In this document: positions 11,758-20,513 of the stretch, in pieces
How the letters are laid out: every line of letters begins with the position of its first letter
Position numbering within the stretch: the stretch's first letter is position 1
IMG/VR virus record: IMGVR_UViG_3300025120_000729
Span: 1-20,513 of that record
Source of the DNA: a virus
Strand: one strand, 5' to 3'
Length of the DNA stretch: 20,513 nucleotides
Translations under genes and position numbers: made by a program
The notes under the pieces: generated by a model
Seen by the model: only the letters and a program-made list of their open reading frames with translations
What the model was told of the DNA's origin: nothing
Databases searched by the model: none

Positions 11758-12198
11758 CTAGAAATGTAAAATGTCTTCGGGATTGGATATTCTAGCCAAA
11801 ACCTCGTCATCGTTTAAAATCCTGACCTCACCACCGTCGATCTTAAAACGTGAACCAGCGTAACGGGCAAACATTACCCAATCACCCTTCGCGCACCACG
11901 GTCCTTTTGGAAATTTGTCAGAATCTATATATGCCAACGCGCCCACTTTAAGGACATAACCCACCTGAGTTGAAACAGACTGTTCCTCTACAATATGGTC
12001 CGGCAAATATATGCCGCTTTCCGTCTTGCCCTTACCCTTGTAAGGAAGAATCAACAGCCGCCAACCCGTGGGGGTAGGCATTTTTTCTAAAAGAGATTGG
12101 CCCAGTTCTTCCGGGTCCAAAACCTTGTTTGTCTTTTCTTTATACGCGTCTTCTAAACTAGCCGCGCCTAAGTCGATTGCTTGTGCTTTAGTCAACAC
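11758..12198 (-). CDS. GroES-like co-chaperonin with N-terminal extension
   Basis: A 146-residue protein. Residues about 40-140 align by eye with GroES: RLLILPYKGKGKTESGIYLP corresponds to the first strand, mobile loop and GGIVL segment; VGYVLKVG to GEVLAVG; and AKGDWVMFARYAGSRFKIDG with VRILNDDEVLARI to the VKVGDIVIF...EEVLIMSESDILAIV part. Residues 1-39 are an extra helical N-terminus (SLEDAYKEKTNKVLDPEELG). T4 gp31 shows that phages can encode a GroES substitute that works with host GroEL to fold capsid protein; the same role is inferred here, since scaffold and capsid genes follow directly. The start is GTG at 12198 or TTG at 12195; GGAG is 4 or 7 bases upstream, favouring TTG. It overlaps the preceding gene. 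Confidence 0.82.
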   Translation of the reverse strand: MLTKAQAIDLGAASLEDAYKEKTNKVLDPEELGQSLLEKMPTPTGWRLLILPYKGKGKTESGIYLPDHIVEEQSVSTQVGYVLKVGALAYIDSDKFPKGPWCAKGDWVMFARYAGSRFKIDGGEVRILNDDEVLARISNPEDILHF

Positions 12199-12447: not shown

Positions 12448-12900
12448 CTACAACATTAATTCAAAATGAGGCGCGTCAATAAAAGGCCTTCGGGACTGAG
12501 ACCGACGAGTGTCAATGTACGAGTTCATGGCATTCTCCGCCGTTCCGGGAAAACTACCAATGTCGTTAATAGTCCACGCCGCGCCCCAACGCAATTTCAC
12601 ACCGGCCGCAGACGCGCCTTCCTTCATTGCATCAGCAATCTCGTCGTACAAATTAAGCTCCCACCGACCGCCGTTGCAATACGCCATCAAATCCACCGCG
12701 TTGCCGTCAAGATGCTTACTTTTCATAGTTTGTGACGCCCCTTTGGCGACCAGAGCCTTCTGCTCGGCCATTGTCCTCAAGCCGCAAATGACGCTGAAAT
12801 CCTGTTTGGTCACACCTATGGCGTATTTCACGACCGTTACCAGCCTTTCGTCTACCCCGTCTAGGTTTGACAGGCTTCGTTTTCCTAATTTGTATCCCAT
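12448..12900 (-). CDS. Endolysin, peptidase M15 family
   Basis: A 150-residue single-domain enzyme. The zinc motif is visible as SKHLDGNAVDLMAY (residues 61-74; the SxHxxGxAxD signature with H63 and D70 as ligands). The C-terminal DAPHFEL gives the third ligand H145, with D142 in the catalytic position. Family members such as the T5 endolysin cut L-alanyl-D-glutamate or D-Ala-D-Ala type bonds in peptidoglycan. The N-terminal VICGLRTMAEQKALVAKGAS also fits (GxRT...Q). No signal peptide, so release would depend on the holin upstream. The start is 4 bases beyond the stop of a 39-residue gene, with AGGGA about 11 bases upstream. The cleavage specificity cannot be told by eye. Confidence 0.9.
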   Translation of the reverse strand: MGYKLGKRSLSNLDGVDERLVTVVKYAIGVTKQDFSVICGLRTMAEQKALVAKGASQTMKSKHLDGNAVDLMAYCNGGRWELNLYDEIADAMKEGASAAGVKLRWGAAWTINDIGSFPGTAENAMNSYIDTRRSQSRRPFIDAPHFELML

Positions 12901-14220: not shown

Positions 14221-14481
14221 TTAAAATCCATCAGACAAACCTTTCAGTATGTCCTTAATTGTAACCTTTTCTTTAGCATTAGGCGAGTATTCACATTGAA
14301 ACTGCTTTGGACACTCTCGAAAAGAAAAAGTTGGGTAATGATACCCTACTCCATTATTAACAGAAGAATAGATGCACGTCTTTACTCCGTCAATTTCTAC
14401 TCTTTTCCACAAGTTGCACTGCACATACTCTGGAAACAAAAGCGAATTAGCAAGAACTAACGGAAGAAGAACTGTCGTCAT
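14221..14481 (-). CDS. Small Cys-containing, exported-looking protein
   Basis: An 86-residue protein. The hydrophobic N-terminus MTTVLLPLVLANSLLF lacks the usual early positive charge but resembles a signal or anchor. The remainder has four Cys (C22, C36, C57, C63) in EYVQCNLWKRVEIDGVKTCI and FRECPKQFQCEY, which may form two disulfides in the periplasm. The C-terminus is acidic-helical (IKDILKGLSDGF). It overlaps the upstream gene as ATGA. From memory, related proteins (EYVNCxY...CPKQFQC) recur in marine podoviruses next to membrane genes. A spanin-like or superinfection role is conceivable but unsupported. Confidence 0.7.
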   Translation of the reverse strand: MTTVLLPLVLANSLLFPEYVQCNLWKRVEIDGVKTCIYSSVNNGVGYHYPTFSFRECPKQFQCEYSPNAKEKVTIKDILKGLSDGF

Positions 14482-14954
14482 AACACAGTCGAAATTAAAT
14501 ACATTCCGCCCCCCAACACACCTATAATTAAGGCGGAAAGCACTAAAATAGCCAGATTATTCTGAATTTGACGCTTGGCTTCGTCTTGTGCATGTTCTTG
14601 CTCAGCCCGTTCCTTGCGAATAGAACGCCGCATCTCAAGCATTTCGTCATACGTGCCCCAACCAAAACGCATGTTTAACATCGCCGCAATCTCCGTCTCA
14701 CGCTCCTTTAAAGTTTTTTTATGAATCAGTATCTGTAAAGCTTCTTCCTCTATAGATTGTGAACCTTGCGTAGCACGTTCAAAGAAGGTGGGGTTTTTGC
14801 GTTGTTGTTCAGCGCGGTTGATGTCACTACATGCACCATACCAACTTCCTAGCTGCTTAGACATACTTTCGAGGTCTTTTGCGTGTCCAATAAGCCTCTT
14901 GATACCGCTATAAGCGGCAGAGGCGGTGGCAAAAGCCGTTATGGGATCAATAAT
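14478..14954 (-). CDS. Conserved phage protein with C-terminal TM; likely ATT start
   Basis: The frame with the first ATG at 14864 gives 128 residues, but it stays open upstream to a TAG at 14969-14967. The added stretch reads IIDPITAFATASAAYSGIKR and LIGHAKDLES, which matches the N-terminus I recall for this common marine-podovirus family (DPITAxxxASAAYxxxK). No ATG, GTG or TTG lies in the extension. ATT at 14954 (or 14951) is the best start, with AGGGGG eight bases upstream at 14968-14963. The body is a charged helix with WYGACSDINRAEQQRKNPTF, RFGWGTYDEMLEMRRSIRKE and a C-terminal membrane helix (NLAILVLSALIIGVLGGGMY). Function unknown; perhaps a membrane-associated virion or lysis factor. 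An undetected indel is the alternative explanation. Confidence 0.75.
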   Translation of the reverse strand: MIDPITAFATASAAYSGIKRLIGHAKDLESMSKQLGSWYGACSDINRAEQQRKNPTFFERATQGSQSIEEEALQILIHKKTLKERETEIAAMLNMRFGWGTYDEMLEMRRSIRKERAEQEHAQDEAKRQIQNNLAILVLSALIIGVLGGGMYLISTVL

Positions 14955-14977
14955 TGCAGTATCCCCCTAAATAAACG

Positions 14978-15874
14978 TTATACCATTTGATACGGAGACG
15001 TTATAGCCGGAGCAGTATAACCACCCGCAGGCGGTGAATAAAAGTTTTCCTGTATCTGAGGTAACGCCATAACACCCTTGGAAAAGTTTTCTCCCGAATA
15101 GTTACTTAACCCGTATCCACCCGTCATTTGGGGGGAAGAAACGGGAAGAGGTTGAAAAGACTGCGGCATTAATTGTTGTGCTTGAAATGCCATCTGGTTT
15201 TTGCGCATCATGTTTTCTGCATCCGGTGCCTGACGGCCCCCAAACAACGAACCAATGCCGCCTATAGCGCCGCCAAACGGACCATTCGGCACAGCTTGCG
15301 GAGAAAACAGTGGTCGATAAACTTCGTCACCCGATAGGTCTTTTGCATCACGTTCAAAAACCGGCCTTGGAGCTAATGGCTGATTACCCAAAGCGCCCGG
15401 AAGAGCCGTGTCTATCGGAGATTGAGGCGAAGTCCTACCTGCCTCGGCATTAAGACGCTTAATCTCAGATTGTACCGCAGCAGCTTGCTCTTGAGGTAAA
15501 CTAACCCGAGCTAATTGACGGGCCAAGTCGTTTGCAGAACGACCATCCGCACGAAGCCCCGCATTGGGACCAGAAGCCACAGGAGGAGGAGTTGGAAATA
15601 TCGGTCTCTGACCGCCCGTAGGAGGGCCGCCCGTGGGAGGAGTTGGAAATACCGGTCTCCGACCGCCCGTGGGAGGGCCGCCCGTGGGAGGAGTTGGAAA
15701 TACCGGTCTCCGACCGCCCGTGGGAGGACCACCCGTAGGAAGACCGCCCAAAAACGGATATCTCTGGTTCAAACCCTCTCCCGGAAGAACCTGTGTCTGA
15801 GGGTTAGTTAACGCCTGCTCCTGTCTACGCCGAAACGTCTCCATTTGTTCGGGCGTTGGTGCCATCATAGACAT
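14978..15874 (-). CDS. Proline/Gln-rich repeat protein
   Basis: A 298-residue low-complexity protein. The N-terminus (PTPEQMETFRRRQEQALTNP) is followed by three 17-residue tandem repeats, TGGPPTGGRRPVFPTPP (residues 47-97). A helical segment (ANDLARQLARVSLPQEQAAA) comes next, then a long Pro/Gln/Gly-rich C-terminal half (PQSFQPLPVSSPQMTGGYGL) with NMMRKNQMAFQAQQLMPQ. No signal or membrane segment. Similar disordered proteins follow the portal gene in several marine phages (from memory). It may be an internal virion or portal-associated protein; nothing proves this. It starts three bases after the upstream stop. Confidence 0.7.
   Translation of the reverse strand: MSMMAPTPEQMETFRRRQEQALTNPQTQVLPGEGLNQRYPFLGGLPTGGPPTGGRRPVFPTPPTGGPPTGGRRPVFPTPPTGGPPTGGQRPIFPTPPPVASGPNAGLRADGRSANDLARQLARVSLPQEQAAAVQSEIKRLNAEAGRTSPQSPIDTALPGALGNQPLAPRPVFERDAKDLSGDEVYRPLFSPQAVPNGPFGGAIGGIGSLFGGRQAPDAENMMRKNQMAFQAQQLMPQSFQPLPVSSPQMTGGYGLSNYSGENFSKGVMALPQIQENFYSPPAGGYTAPAITSPYQMV
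15584..15736 (-). repeat. 51-bp tandem repeat, three copies
   Basis: Three near-identical copies of a 51-bp unit encode TGGPPTGGRRPVFPTPP-type repeats. The first two (as translated) are identical in protein; the third has Q and I substitutions. The multiple-of-three unit would keep the frame if copy number changes. Confidence 0.9.
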
Positions 15875-20065: not shown

Positions 20066-20513
20066 AAACATGGCCCAAGCCCCCGCAGGTCGGCACGGGG
20101 CCCGCGGTGCGCTGTCAGCTGATATATCACTGAGAACACCGGTAAATGACCCGATATGCAGGGGCCCCTAGTCGCGTTTAACGGTCCTTGGGCCATTGAT
20201 AATATGGGATATTGTCTAGCCTGGGCGGGTTTTCGTGGTCTCCCTGCGGTTGTCTGGCGCGGATTTCGCGACGGCTGCCGGCAGGATCTGGTCGCCAGCT
20301 GCGGCAGCTGCGGCAGCTGCGGCAGCTGCGGCAGTTAATTGACGCTCGATCGACCGGATCGGTCCAGATCCGCGGCCCTCTCGTCGAGCTCGTCAAAATT
20401 AACTGGGTATCTGGGCACGAGATCCACGAGAATGGACCTCGAACCACGGCCCTCCCGTCCAGCTGGTGGGTTTTGCGGTGGGTGCGGGGGCCACGGCCCG
20501 CCATGTCTAACTA
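20066..20513. other. GC-rich region without a convincing gene
   Basis: These 448 bases are visibly richer in GC than the rest of the window, with a sharp boundary at the AT-rich promoter. They hold a 9-bp tandem repeat (20296-20334), palindromes TGATATATCA (20120-20129) and AGGGGCCCCT (20160-20169), and an imperfect 21-base direct repeat (20373-20393 and 20447-20467, 18 of 21 identical). Open frames exist (one of 108 codons on the minus strand, 20504-20178, starting MAGRGP), but their protein sequence is low-complexity and not convincing. It could be a packaging or control region, a decayed small-terminase gene, acquired DNA or an assembly junction. Confidence 0.55.
20296..20334. repeat. 9-bp tandem repeat (CAGCTGCGG) x4 plus CAG
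   Basis: Four exact copies of CAGCTGCGG followed by CAG. Each unit contains the palindrome CAGCTG (GCAGCTGC across copies). It is read as SCG, poly-Ala or QLR on one strand and CRS, poly-Ala or LPQ on the other. It is a microsatellite-like array in the GC-rich end; a protein-binding iteron array or slippage product are both possible. Confidence 0.9.

Follow-up and report, generated by a model that had tools for sequence, protein, structure and literature searches.

The minus-strand gene discussed here lies in a window that is an entire IMG/VR record, a virus contig of 20,513 bases, and comparison with its relatives confirms that it starts at position 14954, where the codon is ATT. Sequence comparison further indicates that the family to which it belongs, PHROG 32327, has reached non-AUG starts several times. 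The reading favoured here, with moderate confidence, is that of a late, lysis-region membrane protein kept at a low level by a weak ATT start that is discriminated against by the initiation factor IF3. Positions of the features and family members with unusual starts are collected in Table 1.

Table 1. Features of the window and members of the family with unusual start codons
Feature	Position or members	Strand	Basis
158-aa all-helical protein with C-terminal transmembrane helix (PHROG 32327)	14478..14954	-	profile match; AlphaFold model
ATT start codon	14952..14954	-	ATG/GTG/ATT at this position in 58 related loci
Shine-Dalgarno-like AGGGGG, 8 nt before ATT	14963..14968	-	sequence; relatives' alignment
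In-frame TAG closing the frame upstream	14967..14969	-	sequence
First in-frame ATG, internal Met31	14862..14864	-	sequence; ORF list
30 codons missed by a call at ATG 14864	14865..14954	-	(M)-I-D-P-x-[TS]-A-F motif and helix 1 (residues 4-24)
Predicted membrane anchor, a hydrophobic C-terminal helix at about residues 134-157	14484..14555	-	sequence; model helix 101-157
Downstream gene, ATG overlapping the TGA stop (ATGA)	14221..14481	-	sequence; ORF list
Upstream gene, TAA 14980-14978 ending 23 nt before ATT	14978..15874	-	sequence; ORF list
Endolysin of the same region, an M15-type peptidase (PHROG 465), lying downstream	12448..12900	-	profile match
Family members with ATT start	window, L061, L218, L221		
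Family members with ATA start	L226, L227/L231		
Family members with ATC-ATT at the start	L219, L133/L206		SD spacing fits second codon, ATT
Family members with GTC start	L272/L280		

Read directly on the minus strand, the codons are TAG (14969-14967), GGG GAT ACT GCA, ATT (14954-14952), ATT and GAT CCC, and the frame from ATT 14954 to TGA 14480-14478 comprises 158 codons. As a sequence-only reading of this DNA had noted, AGGGGG (14968-14963) precedes ATT 14954 by 8 nt and no ATG, GTG or TTG lies between the TAG at 14969 and the ATG at 14864, which is codon 31 counted from ATT, so that ordinary gene callers would indeed drop 30 residues. Within the 46 nt ahead of the start, the sole ATG, GTG or TTG in any frame is an out-of-frame ATG 32 nt upstream, at the end of the preceding gene. 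Features characteristic of starts of the infC and sigR type are found in this gene, namely a start codon other than ATG, GTG or TTG at the conserved start position, and a well-spaced Shine-Dalgarno (SD) sequence in an open frame devoid of a normal in-frame start. Around the start (14944-14967), the GGGAU of the SD may pair with the GAUCCC just past the start codon, placing ATT in a loop; the fold z-score of this hairpin against shuffles (0.05) is not significant. A scan for sigma-70 promoters and terminators gave matches no more frequent than in shuffled sequences.

The position of the start is established by the relatives. A tblastn search with the 158-residue protein returned 64 related IMG/VR loci and, among phage records, 16 matches that include HMO-2011, Roseobacter CRP phages and Limnohabitans phage DC31. 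Of these loci, 58 extend as far as the start, and in every one of them residue 1 aligns to 14954, with ATG in 52, GTG in five and ATT in one (L061); the annotated start of the isolate genomes lies mostly at the same (M)(I)DP position. Between the window and eight relatives, codons 2-30 differ mainly at the third position, which argues that the segment upstream of ATG 14864 is translated; these 30 residues account for most of the nearly invariant positions, D3, P4, A7, A14 and G25 among them, and also contain helix 1 and the most strongly conserved motif. The conservation of this segment, which the earlier reading had noted for the phage family, is thus real. A start at ATG 14864 (Met31), leaving the upstream segment untranslated, could be invoked on the ground that no normal start codon precedes it in frame, but it is contradicted by the 57 of 58 relatives with ATG or GTG at the 14954 position, the remaining one having ATT, and by 30 upstream residues that are conserved, vary mostly synonymously and form helix 1. 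None of these 58 relatives begins at the position of ATG 14864; homologue starts and the conserved N-terminal segment together exclude a Met31 start for practical purposes.

The earlier reading had also allowed for a hidden indel at 14955-14970. The end of the preceding gene only 23 nt upstream might suggest that an indel, or a programmed frameshift, fuses the two genes. However, the relatives are unfused and carry ATG or GTG at the same position with the same SD spacing; in L008-L016 the arrangement is taggggaattgtgca-ATG and in the window tagggggatactgca-ATT, an equality of spacing that for practical purposes rules out an indel and leaves fusion to the preceding gene highly improbable. A programmed frameshift from the upstream gene was considered separately and found to be without support. 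As a separate observation, a coding stretch at 15500-15830 holds proline/glycine-rich tandem units (PTGGPPTGGRRPVF), and a short-period coding repeat (CRSCRSCRS / SCGSCGSCG) occurs at 20200-20330, near the contig end.

Membership in PHROG 32327 is based on a profile match (E 5.1e-12) over residues 1-154, and the same profile is matched by 110 of 111 aligned relatives. The AlphaFold model of the 158-aa protein has a mean pLDDT of 84, with a helix at residues 4-24 and a long helix at 101-157. Searched with Foldseek against viral models, it matched only uncharacterised phage proteins, at low E-values, and profile searches of the protein against Pfam and PDB gave no convincing match. No prophage relatives of the window protein were found in GTDB genomes; for P0003 there was one match, to a MAG. 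The gene is located between structural genes and the M15-type endolysin, and lysozyme, peptidase or GH19-like genes (GH19 named by eye from sequence) occur nearby in HMO-2011, DC31 and L061. The hypothetical proteins of HMO-2011 and the Roseobacter CRP phages belong to the same family and are likewise often encoded near lysis or structural genes; their genes start with ATG or GTG, whereas the window gene has ATT. The likeliest assignment is that of a membrane-anchored member of a lysis or late module. Owing to the ATGA stop/start overlap, the downstream gene (14221..14481) is probably translationally coupled. Beside the endolysin region, a GTG-started gene at 11758-12198 encodes a GroES-like co-chaperonin (Cpn10, E 8.5e-11).

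With the position settled, it can be asked whether ATT is genuine in this one contig. The window start is one base away from ATG (third base, ATG to ATT), and its closest relatives, L002 and L003 (88% identity), have ATG. The most serious alternative is accordingly that an ordinary ATG at the same position was misread in sequencing or assembly, or was altered by a private mutation, which is plausible though distinctly less probable than a genuine weak start; the gene and its start position would still be right, and the codon would simply not be functionally odd in the window. This explanation draws on the fact that the window is known from a single contig selected for oddness, and on nearest relatives with ATG at the same place and spacing. 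An independent copy of the start region was not found in IMG/VR among the matches listed, where near-identical records may be hidden. Conversely, family members retain ATT or ATA across several metagenomes, and GTG occurs in two of the three sister clusters of the window's clade, so that weak starts exist nearby. Retention of the rare start among close orthologues, another feature of the infC and sigR type, is seen in a distant ATT/ATA clade but not around the window, where the closest orthologues have ATG or GTG. The window therefore stands as an independent, unconfirmed instance of a non-AUG start in the family.

A census of 282 distinct family proteins places it in context. The conserved start is ATG in 245, GTG in seven and TTG in three, and lies one codon later in 15 (13 ATG, 2 GTG). 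Twelve (~4%), one of them a truncated duplicate, have no normal start at or beside the conserved position, a figure enriched for odd starts by one scan that sought ATH starts specifically; once relatedness is counted on a tree, the odd starts amount to about five independent shifts. When a single automatic rule is applied, a normal start is missing altogether from 10 of 280 family members, versus two of 656 proteins in 23 other assignable families from the same loci (Fisher p 1.8e-4), and the two control exceptions, CTT and CAG, are probably misalignments. An apparent ATA start in L466 was rejected and counted as normal, the next codon being GTG. Among distant members, L219 (at 2862) and L133/L179/L206/L224 show ATC-ATT-GAT/GAC-CC behind AGGAGTA or GAGGTA, and SD spacing suggests that the ATT at the second codon is the start; L133 also has a distant upstream ATG. 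In L272 (3706) and L280 (4001), two separate assemblies, a seeming GTC start stands behind AAAGGA, with an out-of-frame ATG inside the spacer.

The most coherent group of odd starts is the ATT/ATA clade. With the first two residues masked, L218 and L221 (ATT) and L226 and L227 (ATA) group in one clade (support 95*, and 95/96* in IQ-TREE); L061 shares 91% identity with L218. The contigs of these members, from different metagenomes, range from 20 to 222 kb. L218, L221, L061, L226, L227 and L231 all carry TAAGGAG 7-8 nt ahead of ATT or ATA, in a leader of the type GTTAGTTAAGGAG, and no ATG, GTG or TTG occurs in the 4-5 open codons upstream of the start. ATT is retained between L218 and L221 with 22 of 38 fourfold sites different; ATT members have diverged from ATA members at 19-27 of 30-34 fourfold sites, yet ATG is absent. 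The sister phages of this clade have TTG (L228-L230, L388) or ATG. Upstream of the leaders of the clade lies a TATAAATA or ATTAAATA box, with an exact TATAAATA upstream of 3001 in L307 (contig of L221) and ATTAAATA in sister phages; these boxes are reminiscent of T4 late promoters. Other genes were surveyed for odd starts over 20-100 kb per phage (37-139 gene segments with homologues each), by a filtered screen, as unfiltered genome-wide screens were swamped by antisense ORFs. Long conserved coding sequence before the first normal start, support from at least four further phages and an ATH codon preceded by an SD were the criteria. No other gene with an ATH-type start was found in the ATT/ATA phages among the matches listed (in part for G004), and in the phage parts surveyed the odd start is specific to the PHROG 32327 gene.

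Discrimination against such starts is the work of IF3 (PMC5472188), and the contigs were therefore searched for this factor. IF3_C scores above cut-off in five of the six ATT/ATA contigs, those of L226, L061, L218, L221 and L231. The remaining contig, that of L227, is a fragment of 47.7 kb, and its copy of the PHROG 32327 gene is identical to the one in L231. IF3 is absent from all 67 of the other contigs or records in which the gene occurs, namely 49 additional family contigs of up to 262 kb, the contig of L230, the window itself, and 16 others with ten phage records included. The window's relatives thus lack IF3 as well. The IF3 in L476 (1617-2183) shows both domains, PF05198 (E 1.2e-21) and PF00707 (E 1.3e-19), the latter covering positions 1-63 of 86 with the last part of the C-domain missing. 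In this contig, which is that of L226, the gene order at 458-2827 is clpX - IF3 - bS21 - clpS, a translation and proteolysis takeover set. The IF3 gene starts at ATG in four phages and, having no ATG, probably at TTG in the fifth. Phage IF3 is already documented in huge phages (PMC7162821, PMC7824862, PMC11242549), and in Sinorhizobium phage AP-J-162 it is likewise described as adjoining clpX. In the parts consulted, work on huge phages that encode IF3 and bS21 (PMC7162821, PMC9723584, PMC11242549) does not link phage IF3 to a non-AUG start in the same phage.

In mechanistic terms, the connection that the sequence-only reading had drawn to rare, IF3-sensitive starts holds; IF3 represses starts other than ATG, GTG and TTG and regulates infC (ATT) and sigR (GTC) (PMC5472188). 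A strong, well-spaced SD would recruit the 30S subunit, the initiator tRNA would pair imperfectly with AUU or AUA and place fMet on AUU, and most complexes would be rejected by IF3, making output low and IF3-dependent. Because an AUU start is discriminated against by IF3, the protein would be made in vivo at such a low, IF3-dependent level. Repeated non-AUG starts, together with AUU/AUA kept in one clade, suggest that the PHROG 32327 protein probably tolerates or favours a weak start, which may be of benefit; the ATG of most family members (245/282) counts against this reading.

In the ATT/ATA phages, a further layer of control could come in trans from a phage IF3. A dedicated circuit, with the level of one gene adjusted by the IF3 that the phage itself encodes (together with its bS21), is a speculative proposal and on balance unlikely. 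It accounts for IF3 being found in 5/6 ATT/ATA contigs and 0/67 of the others, for a full-length IF3 adjoining bS21, clpX and clpS, and for the limitation of the rare start to the PHROG 32327 gene in the parts surveyed. Nevertheless, all this concerns one evolutionary lineage, which leaves few independent events behind the association of IF3 with the rare start; jumbo phages absent from the records matching the gene family commonly encode IF3, this factor may serve general host takeover, and the window's relatives are without it. Slightly more doubtful still is a two-part trans switch in large marine phages that carry IF3 (with bS21), whereby phage-made or host IF3 would set the level of a single lysis-region membrane protein through a start kept as AUU or AUA; if true, it would resemble infC autoregulation, but in trans within a virus, and the window phage would be the case without its own IF3, relying on that of the host.

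Very few genes are known with starts outside ATG, GTG and TTG, and gene callers miss such starts by design. E. coli pcnB starts at AUU and phage T4 gene 26* from an internal AUU. Both share the AUU start with the window gene, T4 providing a phage precedent, but their proteins are unrelated to the window protein and the T4 start is internal. A close parallel is E. coli infC, with an ATT start behind an SD and IF3 as discriminating factor (PMC5472188), as would apply to the window gene; for infC, E. coli has ATT and Streptomyces ATC (PMC5472188). However, infC encodes IF3 itself and is autoregulated, whereas the window gene encodes a phage membrane protein, and the IF3 of the ATT/ATA phages comes from a gene at another place, with ATG or probably TTG as its start. 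Streptomyces sigR (PMC5472188) has a GTC start with a strong SD that is gene-specific, and overlaps rsrA by ATGA; the window gene is similarly non-canonical and overlaps the next gene likewise, and L272/L280 seem to use GTC as sigR does. Yet sigR is a cellular sigma factor whose repression by IF3 was demonstrated experimentally, while the phage gene is known here from sequence.

An IF3-discriminated start is thus already known and is not a new kind of system; what is new is the family-level pattern of non-AUG starts, the conserved AUU/AUA clade and the phage IF3 in the same genomes. The window alone would be a good annotation catch with an error caveat, and its significance is raised by the family pattern and the phage IF3. 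The repeated non-AUG starts are a warning for the annotation of phage N-termini. ATT/ATA starts beside a phage IF3 hint at deliberate translation control, and the family pattern together with this factor offers a concrete, testable reason for phages to carry initiation factors.
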